The notes under the pieces were generated by a model, which worked only from the letters and a program-made list of their open reading frames with translations, was not told the origin of the DNA and searched no databases. Shown here in pieces: positions 18,540-62,539 of a stretch of DNA of 64,000 nt. Every line of letters starts with the position of its first letter. Within the stretch, counting starts at the first letter, position 1. This stretch comes from Candidatus Limnocylindrales bacterium (GTDB lineage Bacteria > Moduliflexota > Moduliflexia > Moduliflexales > JAUQPW01): NCBI GenBank assembly GCA_035559535.1, contig DATMBG010000058.1, positions 1 to 64,000 of the forward strand, read 5' to 3'. The position numbers and the translations under genes were made by a program.

Positions 18540-19316
18540 TCAGGACCGTTGACCTCTGTTTTTTTCAAATATAATCCGTAGCCCTTCCAGCGTCAAATGA
18601 GGAAGAACTTTTTGAATTTCTTGAGATTCATCCCCGATGAGATGGGCCAGCCCACCCGTTGCGATAATGATCGGATTGGAACCGAGCTCTCTTTTCATCC
18701 GCCCAATAATTCCATCAACCAGAGAAACATATCCATAAAAAAGTCCTGATTCTATACTGGATACGGTATTTTTTCCTATTACCTTTTCCGGTTTACGGAT
18801 ACCCACTTTCGGTAGCTTAGCGGTTCGTTGAAACAGAGCTTCTGCGGAGATAGAAATTCCAGGAGTTATCACGCCCCCCAGATACTCTCCTCGCTCTGAT
18901 ACAGCACAAAAAGTAGTTGCAGTCCCAAAATCGACAATGATGAGAGGTCCTCCAAACATATCAAAGGCCGCCACGGCATTAACAATTCGATCTGCACCGA
19001 CTTCTTTGGGATTATCATAGAGAATCGGCATGCCGGCATGAAGGCTCGGCTCGATAACTAAGGGATCCTGATGGAAATACCGACGGGAGGTTTCTTCTAA
19101 AACTCCTGTCAAAGGTGGGACTACAGAAGAAATTGCAACACCTCTGACCTGTTCGGGATTGAGACCTGCAATTTGGAAAAATTCCCGTATGAGAATACCG
19201 TGTTCATCGACCGTTCGCTCTCGCTGGGTTGAGATACGCCAGCTATTTAAAAGGACTTTTCCCTTATAAACTCCAAGGACAATGTTGGTATTACCAATAT
19301 CAATAACAAGTAACAA
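18540..19316 (-). CDS. coaX: Type III pantothenate kinase
   Basis: A 258-residue enzyme that phosphorylates pantothenate, the first step of CoA synthesis. The ASKHA-fold motifs are visible: phosphate 1 [12 protein letters not shown], the [13 protein letters not shown] helix, phosphate 2 [20 protein letters not shown] and the adenosine motif IATGGLA. Length is normal. It is downstream of birA (179-bp gap with a minisatellite hairpin). The later CoA enzyme CoaBC is encoded at 37124-38404. Confidence 0.95.
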
Positions 19317-19318
19317 GG

Positions 19319-19425
19319 GGAGTATGGGAGTATGGGAGTGTGGGAGTGTGGGAGTACGGGCGTGTGGGGGAATTTACCCCCCTTACCTCCATACTCCTAT
19401 ACGCTCATGCCCCCATACCTTCTAT
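19319..19425. repeat. Hairpin minisatellite with 8-nt words
   Basis: The left arm has octamers GGAGTATG, GGAGTGTG, GGAGTGTG, GGAGTACG, GGCGTGTG. The right arm carries degenerate complements (CCCCTTACCTCCATACTCCTATACGC is the type, here across 19378-19420). The whole element fills the gap between coaX and birA. Confidence 0.7.
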
Positions 19426-25934: not shown

Positions 25935-28505
25935 CTACCGGGAGAGAGTAACCGGGGATTGGAGAAGCTTTTGAACGCTCTCCAGTAATTTCCTGTCATC
26001 AAAAGGTTTAACCAGATAATCATTAGCTCCCAGGGCGATAGCTTTCTGATAGTGTTTTTCTCCGGCTCGGGAGGTCAAAACGATAATGGGAAGGTCTTGG
26101 AGCTCGGGTTTACTACGAACCTTTGCAATAAGCTCATAGCCATGCATTTTGGGCATCTCCAGATCGGTAATCAGTAAGTCGAACCGATGGGGCGAATTTA
26201 ATTTGTTCCAGGCTTCCAGACCATCATGGGCTACCTGAACGGTATATCCTGCTTGATTTAAGAAATGGCTGACCACCTTTCGAATGCTGATAGAATCATC
26301 GGCAATCAACACTTCAGGAATATGTTCATGGGAATCGGGCAGTACTTCCTCGTGTTCTTCGATTTCCCCTTTACCTTCTTTTATTTCTGGCTCATTACCC
26401 ACGATCCAGGGTCTGGCCTCTTCGGCTTGCCCTGCTACGGTTTCCAGGATATAAGAAGCATCTAGGATTAATCGAACGGCTCCTTCTCCAGAAATCGTGG
26501 CCCCAGAGAACATGCGAGCCCTTTTAAGATAATCTCCTAAAGGTTTGATGACGATCAGTTGTTGACCGATCAGCTCATCTACTTTTACAGCAATTTTTCT
26601 TTCCACAGAACCCAGGATAATCACCGGCAGATAAGGTGATTTGGAAGACCCTTCCGGAAGGGGGGGTTCTACTTCTGAAAGTTGGAGAAGTTTATTTAGC
26701 CGGATAAAGGTTAAAATTTGATCCCTTATTCGAATGACCTCCTGGCCTGTAACCACATGGATTTGGTTGGGAGTGACGCGAAGCGTTTCTTCCACGGAAT
26801 TGAGAGGGATCGCAAATTCTTGGCCACCCACCCGGACTAAAAGGGCCTGATAAATAATCAGGGTCAGGGGTAGCTTGATCACAAAGAGGGTTCCCTTTCC
26901 CGGCTCCGATTTAATATCTATAGAACCTCCCAGCTTGGTAAGATTCGTTTTCACCACATCCATCCCAACCCCTCTTCCGGATACACTGGTTACTTTCTCC
27001 TTGGTAGAAAATCCTGGAAGAAATATAAGTTGATAGGTCTCTGGATCACTTAATCGATCTACTTCTGCTTGAGATTTTATACCTTTTTTTACAGCCGTTT
27101 CTCGTAGCTTTTGGGGGTTCATCCCTGCGCCATCATCACGAATTTCAATGATAATCTGACTCCCCTGTTGATAAGCATTTAAAGAAATAGTTCCTACTCT
27201 AGGCTTACCCAATTTCTCCCGTACATCCGGGGGTTCAATTCCATGGGAAACTGCATTTCGAACCAGGTGCATGAGAGGATCTGCCATTTCTTCGATCACG
27301 GTTTTATCTAATCGGGTCTCTTCCCCTGCAGTAATAAGTACCACTTCTTTTCCCTCTTCCTTGGATACATCCCGGACCGGTCTGTGAAATCGATTAAAAA
27401 GATTGCTCACCGGAACCATTCGAATATTGGTAAGTCCTTCTTGTAGCTGCTCGGTGGTACTGCGGACCTGGGAAGATTCTACCTCAAAGGCTTCAAAAAA
27501 ATTATTGAGCTGGTCAATAATTTCTGAAATATCGGAACCTATCTCGATCAAACTTCGAGATAAGATATTAAAATCATCATACTTATCAAACTCTAGTTCA
27601 GAAAACCCATTTAACAGGTCTTCTGGATGGGGGGAGGTGGGGAGGTGGGGGCTGAGAGATGGGGGGGAATGTCTCTGTGTCTCCGCGTCTCCATGTCTCC
27701 GCGTCTCCGTGTCTCCGCGTCTCCATGTCTCCGCGTCTCCATTTGGGTCCCTGAACAGGCTATATTCATATTTTTCTTTGAAATCCCGTATTACTTTAAG
27801 TAATTTCGCCTTACTGAAATTGAGTTCTGTACTCACCTTATTGAGGTAGCTAATGTGCTGATCGAGCCGGTTCTGATTAATCACCAGGGCCCCCACCAGG
27901 TTCATCAGTTTATTCAGGTCATTGATATTGACCTTAGCAAATTGTTTCTCGCTGGGTGCGACCAGGGATTTGGACGTTGGGGCAGATTTCGAATCTGTTT
28001 GGGTTTTTAGCTCGGAGGGGGGAATTTCTACTTTTAGCTCCGGCTTTGAGGTTTGTACTTTTTTAACAAAGGTGGAGGGTTTTACCTCAACAGGGGTACC
28101 GGTACCGAGATCCGATTCCAAAAATTCCCGATACTGGTCTTCAAACATAGGAATCAAGGAATCATCCTCTCCGGTTCCATTTGAGATATTCTCCACCTGA
28201 CTTGCCAGGGCATCAATGGATTGTAGAAGTAGCGTAATGACCGGCTCCGTAGGTTTGATCTCCTGGCTTCGAATCTTCCCTAACAGGTCCTCCATCTTGT
28301 GAGCCAGCTTACTGACCACATTAAATCCCAGCATTGCGGCAGATCCTTTAATGGTGTGGGCGGATCGGAAGATCTCATCCACAATGCCTATATTTTCACT
28401 GTTTGCCTCCAGGGCCAGAAGTCCATCATTGATTACCTGGATGTGTTCTCCAGCTTCAACCAAAAATATCTCGGCTATCTCGGATTTGTTAAGTCCTTGG
28501 GTCAT
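25935..28505 (-). CDS. cheA: Hybrid chemotaxis histidine kinase CheA with C-terminal receiver (FrzE/PilL-like)
   Basis: An 856-residue protein. The Hpt domain is about 1-110 with the phospho-acceptor His50 in RSAHTIKGSAAMLG. A dimerisation/MRM segment starts near 195. The ATPase has LVRNAVSHGIEP, DDGAGMNP and GRGVGMDVVK. A CheW-like domain follows (QALLVRVGGQEFAIPLNS), then a receiver from about 735 (VLIADDSISIRKV, LLITDLEMPKMHG, YLVKPFDDRK). Residues about 255-295 in the dimerisation region are encoded by an in-frame octamer minisatellite and read as Gly-Asp-Ala-Glu-Thr/Arg-Arg-His repeats. The hybrid layout is typical of alternative or type IV pilus chemosensory systems. No P2 CheY-binding domain is evident. 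Confidence 0.93.
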   Translation of the reverse strand: MTQGLNKSEIAEIFLVEAGEHIQVINDGLLALEANSENIGIVDEIFRSAHTIKGSAAMLGFNVVSKLAHKMEDLLGKIRSQEIKPTEPVITLLLQSIDALASQVENISNGTGEDDSLIPMFEDQYREFLESDLGTGTPVEVKPSTFVKKVQTSKPELKVEIPPSELKTQTDSKSAPTSKSLVAPSEKQFAKVNINDLNKLMNLVGALVINQNRLDQHISYLNKVSTELNFSKAKLLKVIRDFKEKYEYSLFRDPNGDAETWRRGDTETRRHGDAETQRHSPPSLSPHLPTSPHPEDLLNGFSELEFDKYDDFNILSRSLIEIGSDISEIIDQLNNFFEAFEVESSQVRSTTEQLQEGLTNIRMVPVSNLFNRFHRPVRDVSKEEGKEVVLITAGEETRLDKTVIEEMADPLMHLVRNAVSHGIEPPDVREKLGKPRVGTISLNAYQQGSQIIIEIRDDGAGMNPQKLRETAVKKGIKSQAEVDRLSDPETYQLIFLPGFSTKEKVTSVSGRGVGMDVVKTNLTKLGGSIDIKSEPGKGTLFVIKLPLTLIIYQALLVRVGGQEFAIPLNSVEETLRVTPNQIHVVTGQEVIRIRDQILTFIRLNKLLQLSEVEPPLPEGSSKSPYLPVIILGSVERKIAVKVDELIGQQLIVIKPLGDYLKRARMFSGATISGEGAVRLILDASYILETVAGQAEEARPWIVGNEPEIKEGKGEIEEHEEVLPDSHEHIPEVLIADDSISIRKVVSHFLNQAGYTVQVAHDGLEAWNKLNSPHRFDLLITDLEMPKMHGYELIAKVRSKPELQDLPIIVLTSRAGEKHYQKAIALGANDYLVKPFDDRKLLESVQKLLQSPVTLSR
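27625..27742. repeat. Octamer minisatellite inserted in frame in cheA
   Basis: Positions 27671-27742 are exactly nine octamers of the GTCTCCGC/GTCTCCAT/GTCTCTGT type (72 nt, 24 codons). A G-rich partner tract (27628-27668) lies to the left and can pair imperfectly with the C-rich octamers. The reading frame of cheA is kept. The flanking protein sequence (EYSLF and GFSELEFDKYDDFN) looks like continuous kinase sequence in relatives. Confidence 0.85.
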
Positions 28506-28565: not shown

Positions 28566-30488
28566 TCAGATTCCGAAATCCTTATCGGTAATGAGATCTT
28601 CATCATCAGAATCTTCTCCAAATCCTTCATCCTCTTCGGCAAGGGAGGTAGTGGAGGAGGAGACTATCTTTTCCCTGGATGCCCGGGGAAGGAATCGAGG
28701 ATCTCTTTCACGGAGTTTAAATCTCCCAATCGCTTCGGTAAGGCGGTCCGATAAGGTTGCCAGTTGTTTAATGGTCTCGGTGGTTTGTCTGACAAATTCC
28801 ACGTGTTGGGCGGTGATATCAGAAATGCTCTCCATGGATTTAACGACCCCTTCGGTTCCACGAACCTGTTGTTTTGCGGCGAGGGAAATTTCATGGATAA
28901 GGTCCGCCACCTGTCCGACAATTTTGTCGATTTCCTTAAGGGAGGCACCTGCAATATCGGCCAGGCGGGTTCCTTCTTCCACTTCCCGGGTACCCTCTTC
29001 CATGGCCCGGACTGCTTCGGTAGTCTCGGCCTGAATTCCTTTAATGAGTTCTGCGATATTTTCCGTGGCTTTACTGGATCGTTCGGCCAATTTTCGCACT
29101 TCTTCAGCTACCACCGCAAACCCTCGTCCATGTTCACCTGCTCGAGCTGCTTCGATGGCAGCATTAAGGGCCAGGAGGTTGGTTTGAGAGGCAATATCAT
29201 CGATAACTTCTACAATTTCACCAATCTCCAGGGATCGATCTCCTAAACTTTTAATCTTCTTACTGGTCACCTGAACGGTATTTCTAATGCGATGCATCCC
29301 CTTGATGGTTTCTGCTACGGATTTCTCACCCTTCTGAGCTGCTTCGGTAGCCCTTTGAGACGCCTGGCTGGCCGCTTCGGCGTTATTAGAAACCTGCTGC
29401 ATGGAAATAGAAATCTCATCGACCGCACTGGAAGTATTGTTAATATGAACCCGTTGTTCTTCAGCTCCTTTTAACATATGGGGGACAGCGGCTAAAATCT
29501 GTGTGGTAGCAGAACCGATATCTCCTGCAGCATCTCGAACCTGCTCTACCAGAGACGCTAAACCCGTAATCATCAAATTAAACGCGTCGGCCAAAGAACC
29601 CAGAACATCGGCAGTTACCTCTGCTTCTTTTGTTAAATCTCCCTGAGCAGCGGCGGCGACAATATTAAGCATGTTTAAGATGTGGGATTGAATGGTATTC
29701 ATGGCTTCCTCGGCTCGTGCTCCAGCCTGCTTCTGTTGTTGAATATGATCCATCATCTCATTCAGTGCATGACCCAATAGGCCAATTTCGTTCATGGCGG
29801 TAATTTCTGCCTTTTGCCCCAAATTCCCTTTCTTTACTCGATTAGCTAAATCTAACAATTCCCGAACAGGATTTAGAACCTGTGAGAGCGTGATATAACG
29901 CATAAAGAAGATGCCGAGAATTATCATGACCAGAGCGACTAACGCGAATTTCAAAATCTTGGAGTAAAGATAATTTTGTACCTCTGTTCTCACCCCCACG
30001 TGAAGCTCTGCTTTTTGTTCCGGTATAACTCTAACTCCTGCATCGATAACTTCTTGTTCTGTACCATCCAATTTAACAAAAAACCTCCGGTAACTGATCG
30101 CCTGGTCCTTAGAAAGTGGATTGGGAGTTACACTGACCAAAGAGGAGGCTCTGGCCACTACGTTTCCACCGGCATCCCGGACATAGATATAGACGATTTC
30201 GGGTTCCAGGGTTTTCATCAGCTCCAACTCTTTCTGCACGCCTGCATAATCTCCTCGAGCGAAGTTCCCAGAAATATGAGCCGCAAGTACTCTGGCTACT
30301 GCACCTGCCTTTGTCTGTAGTTCTTTATCCAGGAAATTTTCCTGATTAAAGTTTAAAATGAAATACCCCATAAGGCCAAAAACAATAAGTAAAAGAATAC
30401 TTCCCCCAATAAATTTGGTTCCCAGCCGGTGAATAACTGGAAGGTTATCCAGGGAAACTTCCCCTGGTTTTGCTTGATCTTTCAGCAT
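28566..30488 (-). CDS. Methyl-accepting chemotaxis protein (PilJ-like receptor)
   Basis: A 640-residue receptor. TM1 (IGGSILLLIVFGLMGYFIL) is followed by an extracytoplasmic domain of about 150 residues and TM2 (FALVALVMIILGIFFM). A HAMP domain with NRVKKGNLGQKAEI follows, then a linker and a signalling domain whose hairpin tip reads IASQTNLLALNAAIEAARAG. ATG 30488 was chosen; a longer frame begins at 30584, but those residues are encoded by the minisatellite upstream. The C-terminal tail is Glu- and Asp-rich, with no NWETF-type CheR-binding pentapeptide. It lies between cheW and cheA. Confidence 0.93.
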   Translation of the reverse strand: MLKDQAKPGEVSLDNLPVIHRLGTKFIGGSILLLIVFGLMGYFILNFNQENFLDKELQTKAGAVARVLAAHISGNFARGDYAGVQKELELMKTLEPEIVYIYVRDAGGNVVARASSLVSVTPNPLSKDQAISYRRFFVKLDGTEQEVIDAGVRVIPEQKAELHVGVRTEVQNYLYSKILKFALVALVMIILGIFFMRYITLSQVLNPVRELLDLANRVKKGNLGQKAEITAMNEIGLLGHALNEMMDHIQQQKQAGARAEEAMNTIQSHILNMLNIVAAAAQGDLTKEAEVTADVLGSLADAFNLMITGLASLVEQVRDAAGDIGSATTQILAAVPHMLKGAEEQRVHINNTSSAVDEISISMQQVSNNAEAASQASQRATEAAQKGEKSVAETIKGMHRIRNTVQVTSKKIKSLGDRSLEIGEIVEVIDDIASQTNLLALNAAIEAARAGEHGRGFAVVAEEVRKLAERSSKATENIAELIKGIQAETTEAVRAMEEGTREVEEGTRLADIAGASLKEIDKIVGQVADLIHEISLAAKQQVRGTEGVVKSMESISDITAQHVEFVRQTTETIKQLATLSDRLTEAIGRFKLRERDPRFLPRASREKIVSSSTTSLAEEDEGFGEDSDDEDLITDKDFGI

Positions 30489-30598
30489 CTTTTTTTGTCC
30501 GTTATCCGTTGTCCATAGTCCGCAGTTTACTTTCCTAGATAACGAACAGAGGACAACAGGCAAAGGACAATGGACAGAAGACAAACTACAGACATAAA
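30489..30598. repeat. Hairpin minisatellite with 7-nt words
   Basis: Left arm heptamers: TTGTCCG, TTATCCG, TTGTCCA, TAGTCCG. Right arm heptamers: GACAACA, GGCAAAG, GACAATG, GACAGAA, GACAAAC. The element fills the gap between cheW and the receptor gene and abuts the receptor start codon. Confidence 0.75.
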
Positions 30599-31545: not shown

Positions 31546-32748
31546 CTATTGTTTAGATTTCCTGATAAATTCTATAATTTTATCGACCTTATCCTGAACT
31601 CCCTTGACCCTATCCTGGATTAACTTTTCCATATGCTTTAGAATCTTTTCCTGAAACACTTTGGAAAGCCGGGCTTCAATCATCTTTTCTATCTTAGCTT
31701 CAAGGTCCCCTGAGGTTAACCACTTGTTTATCTCTTCCTGTACAAGGACCTGGATATTCTGCTGGGCGGAAAGGGTGGTAGCGGGAGTTTCAGGCGCTTT
31801 CACCCCATCTAGGGAGGGGTGGAGAGGAATCTGGGACTCCGGGGTAGGGGAACCCTCAACGGCTTGTTGGGGAGATGTGGCTATTGCAGGCGTAAGGGAA
31901 ACTTTTTGGGTATTGTGGCTTTCAAGGGTCTGACGAATTTTTGTAATAAGTTCTTCCGGTTGAAAAGGTTTAGTAATATATCCTGTAACCCCCAACTCGC
32001 TTACAAATTTATCTCCTACTTTATCTCCTTTGGAAGTGACAAGAATCACCGGAATATGTTTTAACTGTTCATCTTTCTGAAGAAGTCGGCAAACCTGAAA
32101 ACCGTTCATCCGCGGCATAACGAAATCTAACAGGATGAGATCCGGCATGATTTCTCTGGCTTTGTTGATTCCATCCAGGCCGTCGGAAGCCGTTATCACC
32201 TTAAAACCTTCAGCGGTTAAAATCATACTCACCAGTTTTCGAACTACCGAGCTGTCATCCACAGAGAGGATTTTGATAGCGGAACTATCCTTTTTTATTG
32301 CCGAATCCGGAGGGCTTCCTGCCTTTGTCTCCGACGAACTTTCCCCCTCACCTCCGGTTCCCTTCTCCCAACTTGGGAGAGGGGAAACCAGGGAGTGAGG
32401 AAGTGAAGCAATTTGAGACCGTGTTTCTTCAGGATCTAAGGGCTTTTGTAGTAAACCTTTGAAATTAGACAGATTTTTAATCTCTTCGCTAACCTGGGAA
32501 TTATTTGAAATAAAGAAAACAGGGATCGATTGGAAGCCCTTGTGTTTGGTAATGGTGGAAGAGAATTTTTCTTCTTTTATTCTTAACGAATCCGTGTCTA
32601 CCAACACTGCAGCCGGCCTGATCATCAAGGCTAAGACTAAACCATCTATCTCATTGGGAACCCGAAGGGATTCAAATTGACCGGATGCGATTTCATCTAA
32701 TTCTTTCTGGAGAGATTCTTCCCCTGTAACTAAGAGTAAAGTTTTCAT
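31546..32748 (-). CDS. Tandem receiver protein with a C-terminal coiled coil
   Basis: A 400-residue protein. Residues 1-112 form a degenerate receiver (TLLLVTGEE instead of VVDDD; AAVLVDTDSL at the acceptor position). After a Pro/Ser/Gly-rich linker (113-155) comes a complete receiver (ILSVDDSSVVRKLVS, LILLDFVMPRMNG, VTSKGD, YITKPFQPEEL). A second linker (280-330) leads to a long helix (about 335-400) rich in Glu, Lys and Ile. Both linkers contain palindromic repeats in frame (32358-32387 and 31799-31822). It is first in the chemosensory operon, directly behind its promoter. The output role is unknown; the helix could be a localisation or oligomerisation element. Confidence 0.85.
   Translation of the reverse strand: MKTLLLVTGEESLQKELDEIASGQFESLRVPNEIDGLVLALMIRPAAVLVDTDSLRIKEEKFSSTITKHKGFQSIPVFFISNNSQVSEEIKNLSNFKGLLQKPLDPEETRSQIASLPHSLVSPLPSWEKGTGGEGESSSETKAGSPPDSAIKKDSSAIKILSVDDSSVVRKLVSMILTAEGFKVITASDGLDGINKAREIMPDLILLDFVMPRMNGFQVCRLLQKDEQLKHIPVILVTSKGDKVGDKFVSELGVTGYITKPFQPEELITKIRQTLESHNTQKVSLTPAIATSPQQAVEGSPTPESQIPLHPSLDGVKAPETPATTLSAQQNIQVLVQEEINKWLTSGDLEAKIEKMIEARLSKVFQEKILKHMEKLIQDRVKGVQDKVDKIIEFIRKSKQ
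32358..32387. repeat. GGGAGAGGG-type palindrome inside a receiver-protein gene
   Basis: TTCCC..TCTCCCAA and TTGGGAGA..GGGAA form an interrupted palindrome within the linker-coding part of the gene at 31546-32748. It encodes a Pro/Trp/Gly-rich peptide (SPLPSWEKGTGGEGE). Similar words occur between genes near 44943-45060 and 63817-63925. Confidence 0.6.
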
Positions 32749-32996: not shown

Positions 32997-33082
32997 AACA
33001 CCCTCCTGGCCCCCCTCCAGGGGGAACTGACGTGGGGTTGCTACTGCTGAAGTCCCCCCTGGAGGGGGGCCAGGAGGGTGTT
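32997..33082. repeat. Long GC-rich palindrome, CTCCTGGCCCCCC type
   Basis: The arms 32997-33025 and 33053-33082 match over 29 bp with one extra G, around a 27-nt loop, and a T-rich tract follows on the plus strand (33080-33089). It lies 3' of the membrane phosphoesterase gene. A 16-nt word (33002-33017) recurs exactly at 62199-62214. It may also act as a terminator. Confidence 0.8.
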
Positions 33083-40783: not shown

Positions 40784-40790
40784 AGATCTA

Positions 40791-40880
40791 AAGTGCCTAG
40801 AGTGAACTAGAGGGCCTAAAGTTGTATTTATTTTAGTTCACTTTAGACGCTTTAGGCCCTTTAGCTCACTCTAGGCACTT
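40791..40880. repeat. Long perfect-armed hairpin between accessory genes
   Basis: AAGTGCCTAGAGTGA (40791-40805) pairs exactly with 40866-40880, and GGGCCTAAAG (40812-40821) with 40850-40859. The arms are built of 9-nt words (CTAAAGTGC, CTAGAGTGA, CTAGAGGGC). It fills the gap between the mxaL- and mxaK-like genes and touches the stop codon of the latter. It could be a terminator or processing site or another minisatellite. Confidence 0.75.
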
Positions 40881-47251: not shown

Positions 47252-47794
47252 TTACTTTCCAGGATCTTTCCAGTTGGCTCCTTCAATAGCCAGTGTTTCC
47301 AGGTATGCCCCGATCTGAGAGATTTGTTGTTCATTGAGAACCTCCTTCCAGGGGGGCATTTGTCTTTGAGGTCTTCCGTTCTTTACAATGGTAACAAACT
47401 CGCTGTAACCCCGCCAAAACTTGCGTAAATCGGCGGCATAACTACCAAATCGGGATTCACCATTGGCTTTTGGACCATGGCATTGGGTACACCAGGTAAA
47501 ATAAAGCTTACGTCCGGCTTCGATGGCTTCTGGTTTACCCGATAAAGGATTGGAAGAAGGGATCGGCATGGAGAGTTTCTTCTCCTCCGATTTTTGTTCT
47601 TCTGCAGGTTTATCTGTTTTCTGTTCTTCGGCCGGTTGACTTGATTTTGGTTCTTCTGCGGGTTTATCAGACTTTTGTTCTTCTTTTTGCTTTTCCATGG
47701 CAAAAACGTTAAATCCTTTGATGCCTGATCCAAGCGAAACGATGAGGGTGATTGCAAGCAAAAGTACCCACCCTTTGTACCGGTTGAATGTCAC
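47252..47794 (-). CDS. Secreted c-type cytochrome, likely electron acceptor of the PQQ dehydrogenase (XoxG-like)
   Basis: A 180-residue protein with a signal peptide (VLLLAITLIVSLGSGIKGF). A 40-residue linker follows, made of four imperfect ten-residue repeats (EEQKSDKPAE, EEPKSSQPAE, EEQKTDKPAE, EEQKSEEKK). One cytochrome c domain carries the heme site CTQCH (about residue 101) and the Met ligand in RQMPPWKEV (about 144). The gene is between the dehydrogenase (279-bp gap with a terminator) and a small secreted protein. It would pass electrons from PQQ to a terminal oxidase. The repeated linker is probably flexible, tethering the domain if the signal is an anchor. The XoxG label rests on context only. 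Confidence 0.82.
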   Translation of the reverse strand: MTFNRYKGWVLLLAITLIVSLGSGIKGFNVFAMEKQKEEQKSDKPAEEPKSSQPAEEQKTDKPAEEQKSEEKKLSMPIPSSNPLSGKPEAIEAGRKLYFTWCTQCHGPKANGESRFGSYAADLRKFWRGYSEFVTIVKNGRPQRQMPPWKEVLNEQQISQIGAYLETLAIEGANWKDPGK

Positions 47795-54320: not shown

Positions 54321-54515
54321 ATGGAGACGCGGGGATGCGGGGACGCGGAGATATGGAGAAATGATATATAACAGCTCAGTAGATCTAGTCGTGCAGAAAA
54401 ATTCCCTCGAAGATACAAACAGAGAGTTACTTTTTCTAACTGCACATCTCCGCGTCTCTGTGTCCCTGCATCTTCCCATCCCTACATCTCCGCGTCCCCG
54501 CATCCCCGCGTCTCT
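54321..54515. repeat. Octamer hairpin minisatellite (same words as in cheA)
   Basis: Left arm (54321-54356): GGAGACGC, GGGGATGC, GGGGACGC, GGAGATAT. Right arm (54445-54515): ATCTCCGC, GTCTCTGT, GTCCCTGC, ATCTCCGC, GTCCCCGC, ATCCCCGC, GTCTCT. Separated by about 90 nt, the arms are complementary. It lies between the convergent TPR-STAND and response-regulator genes. Confidence 0.8.
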
Positions 54516-62198: not shown

Positions 62199-62250
62199 CC
62201 TCCTGGCCCCCCTCAGGGGGGGATTTAGCAGGTTGCCTGCTAAATCCCCC
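62199..62250. repeat. GC-rich palindrome, CTCCTGGCCCCCC type
   Basis: CCTCCTGGCCCCCCTC (62199-62214) matches 33002-33017 exactly. It is followed by a perfect 15-bp hairpin (62218-62232 with 62236-62250) with a 3-nt loop. Confidence 0.75.
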
Positions 62251-62539
62251 CTTGGAGAGGGTTAGACATACATGCTAGAGTAAGAAGGTTAGCCCCAGCG
62301 GGGGTGACCCGTTTAACTTGAAAAAAAATTCTGAATTTCTGAATCTCCCGACGCAAGTCGGGGGCTACCAACCGTTCGCCCCTGACGGGGCTTTTCAGCT
62401 TATTCTGGCCCGCATAGGGGTTAGGAGGGGGTGTCGATCCCAGGTTTAATCCTTCACTTAATGCAGATGGGGTAGAATCCCTGATAGCCGGCAGCCAGAA
62501 AGCAGGCATTCGGATAAACTACTCCATCCAACAGGCCTG
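62251..62539. other. Gene-free gap with three short GC hairpins
   Basis: No gene is seen. Three short hairpins lie in a row: CCCC/GGGG at 62293-62303, CCCGAC/GTCGGG at 62347-62362 and GCCCC/GGGGC at 62378-62391. The last is followed by TTTT on the plus strand, giving it a terminator look although both neighbours are on the minus strand. They resemble intergenic repeat units. Confidence 0.4.

Follow-up and report, generated by a model that had tools for sequence, protein, structure and literature searches.

The octamer array inside the chemotaxis gene cheA is best read as the G-rich arm of a dispersed, genus-specific palindromic repeat, elements of which spread and survive inside genes where the reading frame is kept and the linker is tolerant; we give this reading a probability of about 0.8. 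The array lies within a minus-strand open reading frame (ORF) of the window (the whole 64,000-nucleotide stretch analysed), identified as CheA by its Pfam domains (Hpt, H-kinase_dim (P3 dimerisation), HATPase_c, CheW and Response_reg) and sharing 91% nucleotide identity with the gene of the sister species (the closest relative, MAG JZ-2.bins.100). TRF returns a period of 8 with 8.9 copies (27670–27740) and a period of 16 with a 95% match (27678–27742). Together with the ORF translation, this confirms the array position and in-frame location given by an earlier sequence-only reading, as well as its nine octamers (72 nt, 24 codons) and their peptide. That reading assigned the whole interval 27625–27742 to the array; the array is there, but the insert spans about 118 bp or 39 codons, not 24, since 27625–27666 is the opposite palindrome arm (array detector score 17.9). 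Because this second segment is a degenerate array of opposite sense, 27625–27742 forms a single imperfect palindrome of 118 bp. The same insertion site is occupied in the sister's cheA, where the second arm resembles the family words more closely. The features are as follows.

25935–28505, minus strand: cheA, hybrid chemotaxis histidine kinase, 856 amino acids (Pfam domains; sister-gene identity)

27625–27742, minus strand: entire octamer palindrome, in frame, about 39 codons, residues 254–293 (array detector, reading, sister site, AlphaFold)

27670–27742, minus strand: arm 1, nine GGAGACNN octamers, peptide GDAETWRRGDTETRRHGDAETQRH (TRF, translation)

27625–27666, plus strand: arm 2, degenerate GGGGAGGT-type octamers of opposite sense, SPPSLSPHLPTSPH in CheA (array detector)

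Searching the 5.6 Mb assembly with a three-octamer pattern (GGAGACNNGGAGACNNGGAGAC, up to 3 mismatches) gave 159 matches against 4 for a reversed-pattern control, so the cheA array is not a chance occurrence. We read 49 copies, from 40 stretches taken around pattern matches plus the window, a sample that is drawn via the pattern and hence biased to well-preserved arrays. Most lie between genes. Both arms are recognisable in 37 of the 49, two-armed copies commonly measuring 60–200 bp, and arm order is constant in all 37 (G-rich array 5', loop, C-rich array 3'; the reverse order never occurs). The family consensus is 5'-(GGRGAYNN)n, short loop, (NNRTCYCC)n-3', with stems made of tandem degenerate octamers. 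A further copy in the window is the hairpin near 54321–54515, which had been described as built from the same words as the cheA array; reading both arms bears this out, 54479–54514 being 92% complementary to the 5' arm.

54321–54359, plus strand: second copy, 5' arm, between convergent genes (array detector, reading)

54440–54514, minus strand: second copy, 3' arm (array detector, reading)

Ten of the 49 fall within ORFs that the sister also conserves, all of them in frame in both species; as the sample is pattern-drawn, this genic share applies as an estimate to well-preserved copies only. The host genes encode CheA, MetH, an Eco57I-type methylase, a LivM–LivG fusion, a NurA-domain protein, a glycosyltransferase, the E2 component of a 2-oxoacid dehydrogenase, an AsmA-like protein (named from its sequence alone, without a profile search), an amidohydrolase and RecG. 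In inserts with two surviving arms, the G-rich arm encodes GDxETxRR and the C-rich arm SPRPxVSxSP; four of the ten genic copies retain one recognisable arm only. The MetH insert (about 42 residues) separates the two B12-binding domains, a stretch of about 14 residues in human MetH and without extra residues in a MetH-like protein of a KSB3 relative; that of E2 lies between the lipoyl and E3-binding domains, and that of RecG directly before the wedge domain. Comparison of inserts with homologues covered MetH and CheA, the RecG insert falling outside the aligned part. Conservation of frame suggests that the octamer inserts are translated within their proteins.

The sister retains all ten genic inserts in frame, and the net length changes of its copies relative to those here (+15, −24, +48, −3, +30, +3 and +18) are multiples of 3 in 7 of 7 non-zero cases. 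For the glycosyltransferase copy, a computed value of −1 is an anchor artefact (the proteins are of equal length and align without gaps), and other single-base values may have the same source. Among intergenic copies, 2 of the 18 measured changed by a multiple of 3. Two of the genic changes (−24 and +48) are also multiples of 8; the others (15, 3, 18 and 30) do not correspond to whole octamer units. The suggestion that copy number changes is upheld by cheA itself, whose array numbers 11 units in the sister, ten of them octamers and one a heptamer on reading the sequences, as compared with nine octamers here. The sister's +15 nt is thus two octamers minus one base (+16, −1), and whole octamer triplets are not the sole route to keeping the frame, contrary to the earlier proposal that only gains of three octamers would do so. 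Substitution rates by codon position are 0.19/0.18/0.24 in the inserts and 0.05/0.03/0.15 over the remainder of those genes; hence there is almost no constraint on the peptide, but there is on the frame. Median identity between the species is 77% for the elements and 93% for their flanks. The sister lacks the element at several sites, and because flanking sequence there has been replaced, no target-site duplication or clean insertion is readable.

CheA illustrates how such an insert may be accommodated. Homologues carry a variable linker of about 15–30 residues at this position, and AlphaFold models the insert as coil (pLDDT <50) between the long P3 helices 194–246 and 294–362. The insert of about 39 residues is thereby predicted to be disordered and to extend the turn that joins the two dimerisation helices, so that the repeat lengthens a linker in frame, as the earlier reading had allowed. 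It is probably near-neutral for the kinase, its frame selected and its sequence nearly free.

The stems themselves turn over in a characteristic way. In 14 of 19 palindromic pairs, an element's own arms pair better with each other than chimeric arms combining the two species do (p = 0.0014); the two arms thus evolve in concert, which copying of one arm onto the other would produce. From this pairing pattern and general knowledge of template switching in hairpins, we consider that arm-to-arm copying probably rewrites the stems. The predicted fold energy of the cheA element is −27 kcal/mol here against −55 in the sister: the hairpin of the window's copy is decaying, whereas its GGAGAC arm stays uniform. 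Palindromes in genes are, overall, weaker than intergenic ones. Since 8 divided by 3 leaves a remainder of 2, an octamer array yields one and the same 8-residue peptide whichever frame of a strand is read. All 11 octamer words tested lack stop codons in every one of the six frames; the same is true of 46% of random octamers, and this background rate makes six-frame openness weak evidence when taken alone; real copies have a mean of 4.4 open frames, shuffled ones 2.6. Such openness would ease in-frame survival.

Simple-sequence contingency loci carry a short tandem unit, not a multiple of 3, inside an ORF, and the cheA array had been proposed to act in this way, with octamer slippage toggling the kinase. 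The unit is indeed not divisible by 3, its nine copies are fairly pure (the 16-base period included) and their number differs from that in the sister. Yet the sister's two extra octamers come with a one-base loss that keeps the frame, so that neither species compared shows an off state, and all ten genic copies, nine of them in other genes, are likewise in frame in both species, within a family that is genome-wide and mostly intergenic. The units are moreover degenerate and the architecture palindromic, unlike those of contingency loci. In-frame inserts in both species, with length changes in multiples of 3, therefore indicate a tolerated, frame-selected insert and not a contingency switch, and we regard phase variation as very improbable. 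The sequence-only reading had held that a constant copy number, or the peptide occurring elsewhere as a normal CheA linker, would speak against it: copy number proves variable, and the peptide is indeed found elsewhere, in further genes and genomes, but there it belongs to a dispersed DNA repeat and is not a normal CheA linker. That the array is an ordinary low-complexity linker of local origin might be argued from the variable linker of CheA homologues, but the same words, arm order and peptides appear at dozens of loci and in unrelated proteins, which leaves this explanation scarcely credible.

It is also conceivable, though in our judgement unlikely, that the hairpins serve the host, as transcript 3' ends or as sites for nucleoid or repair proteins, and that genic copies are by-products. 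Many intergenic copies lie about 15 bases or less from a stop codon, several lie between convergent genes, the predicted hairpins are strong and their arms co-vary. However, no T run follows the copies whose flanks were read, the stems change fast in sequence and length between the species, and the family is absent from two other genomes of the order; a position next to genes is expected too if insertions into genes are mostly lost.

Under the preferred reading, that of a spreading palindromic repeat, the element would propagate as small non-autonomous DNA, through a mover or by template switching between copies. Copies in genes would persist where the frame is kept and the linker is tolerant, and stems would turn over by gain and loss of units and probable arm copying, faster than their flanks. 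A profile for the Y1 transposase (PF01797) has no match in the assembly and does match control genomes; a constant terminal inverted repeat, as MITEs have, was not found, the end GGACCC..TTTTGRGAC occurring in a minority of copies only. Because there is no Y1 transposase and the terminal motifs are variable, we treat movement as an inference. The family is shown to have multiplied through the chromosome of the genus, and the cheA copy to predate the split of the two known species. A bolder version, which we think rather doubtful, holds that this is self-propagating DNA of a new kind: six-frame-open octamer hairpins, rewritten by template switching and pre-adapted to insert almost anywhere, essential genes included.

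The sister genome carries the family at a load at least equal to that found here. KSB3 DOLJORAL78 and UASB270 belong to the same order, and the family is absent from both. A four-octamer pattern matches 12 of 385 sampled genomes, this genome and the sister included. The family is ill-defined: its words are degenerate and occur sparsely in unrelated genomes too. The octamer word also turns up in certain unrelated genomes and viral contigs, now and then in hairpin form; two unrelated contigs labelled viral (L209 and L211) hold GGAGACGC octamer hairpins of the same design, which may represent horizontal spread or independent origin. Searching plasmid DNA with the element gave no match, and tblastn of the peptide against plasmids found only tandem arrays in Burkholderia, Rhodococcus and Shewanella, with no link to CheA. 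An Rfam scan of the window identified 5S rRNA only. The exact octamer word had no literature matches, papers on octanucleotide repeats were unrelated, and the literature on octamer palindromes yielded REPINs and nothing alike. In its passages on repeats, the KSB3 genome paper mentions CRISPR arrays and rRNA repeats, and no such palindromes.

A second octamer family has the same design and is several times more abundant than the first. Its word, GGGAGTNN, has 634 matches here, 533 in the sister, and 1 and 0 in the KSB3 relatives (reversed controls, 5 each here and in the sister), and two-armed copies run G-rich then C-rich in 11 of 11. One lies in the window.

19308–19402, no strand assigned: second octamer family copy (GGGAGTNN), beside the predicted TTG start of a coaX-like ORF (TRF, reading)

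This copy abuts the TTG and may supply the start region of the coaX-like gene; another (L150) apparently lies within an ORF. The handedness noted above, with the G-rich array as 5' arm, holds for every two-armed octamer palindrome seen in either family. Several palindrome families seem to be abundant in this genome. At 32331–32450, a different palindrome (CCTCACTCCCTGGTTTCCCCTCTCCC / GGGAGAAGGGAACCGGAGGTGAGG) lies apparently in frame in a minus-strand ORF of 400 amino acids, possibly a third coding palindrome family, and a similar insert is present in the Eco57I-type methylase (L115, near 4841). Degenerate inverted words (GTCCGTTATCCGTTGTCC / GGACAACAGGCAAAGGACAATGGACA) occur at 30498–30582, at the 5' end of the ORF of a methyl-accepting protein (28566–30584). 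Long hairpins with arms of 22–32 nt and 85–97% complementarity lie at 32997–33082, 40788–40880 and 62207–62261, one sharing CTCCTGGCCCCCCTC with another. The 27-base tandem repeat at 47589–47684 (3.6 copies), its unit a multiple of 3, is possibly an ordinary coding repeat.

Several known systems invite comparison. Cyanobacterial STRR are dispersed arrays of short degenerate words, which are heptamers; to our knowledge they are not known as in-frame palindromes. The present family is likewise dispersed and built of degenerate short words, differing in its octamers. PARCELs are coding DNA with dyad symmetry, dispersed and of variable copy number, as here, but form tandem 25-residue domains in ORFs of their own, whereas our elements are short inserts in ordinary genes with an 8-base unit. 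REPINs and REP palindromes depend on a Y1 (RAYT) transposase and are extragenic; here there is no Y1 transposase, and about a fifth of the sampled copies lie in genes. Common to both is dispersed short palindromic DNA, there moved by RAYT (PMC3116915). Inverted repeats within protein-coding genes are shared with the coding palindromes of nematomorph mitochondria, in which both arms encode conserved protein (PMC6649704), while our insert is nearly unconstrained and its family dispersed.

The closest parallel is with the Rickettsia palindromic elements (RPE; PMC2229807, PMC10969869): palindromes of about 100–150 bp in many copies, a large share of them in frame in unrelated conserved genes, encoding the same peptide each time in apparently tolerant proteins. 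The stems set the two apart, being tandem degenerate octamers here and conserved unique sequence in RPE; by description, this distinguishes the octamer stem from described RPE. A constant terminal repeat, not found here, is another point of difference, and so is the phylum (a KSB3 order with free-living relatives, not Rickettsiales). Judged by its organisation, the octamer repeat appears to work as RPE do, with stems of a different, octamer-built kind. What is new, on our best reading, is a protein-coding palindromic repeat specific to a genus, with octamer stems open in six frames.

In-frame palindromic inserts have been regarded mainly as a Rickettsia speciality, with scattered other reports (PMC2229807, PMC10969869). 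An apparently unrelated second case, in a candidate phylum and with a sister species at hand, makes the entry and survival of inserts in proteins directly testable, and the octamer grammar offers a simple possible explanation for the tolerance of such inserts.
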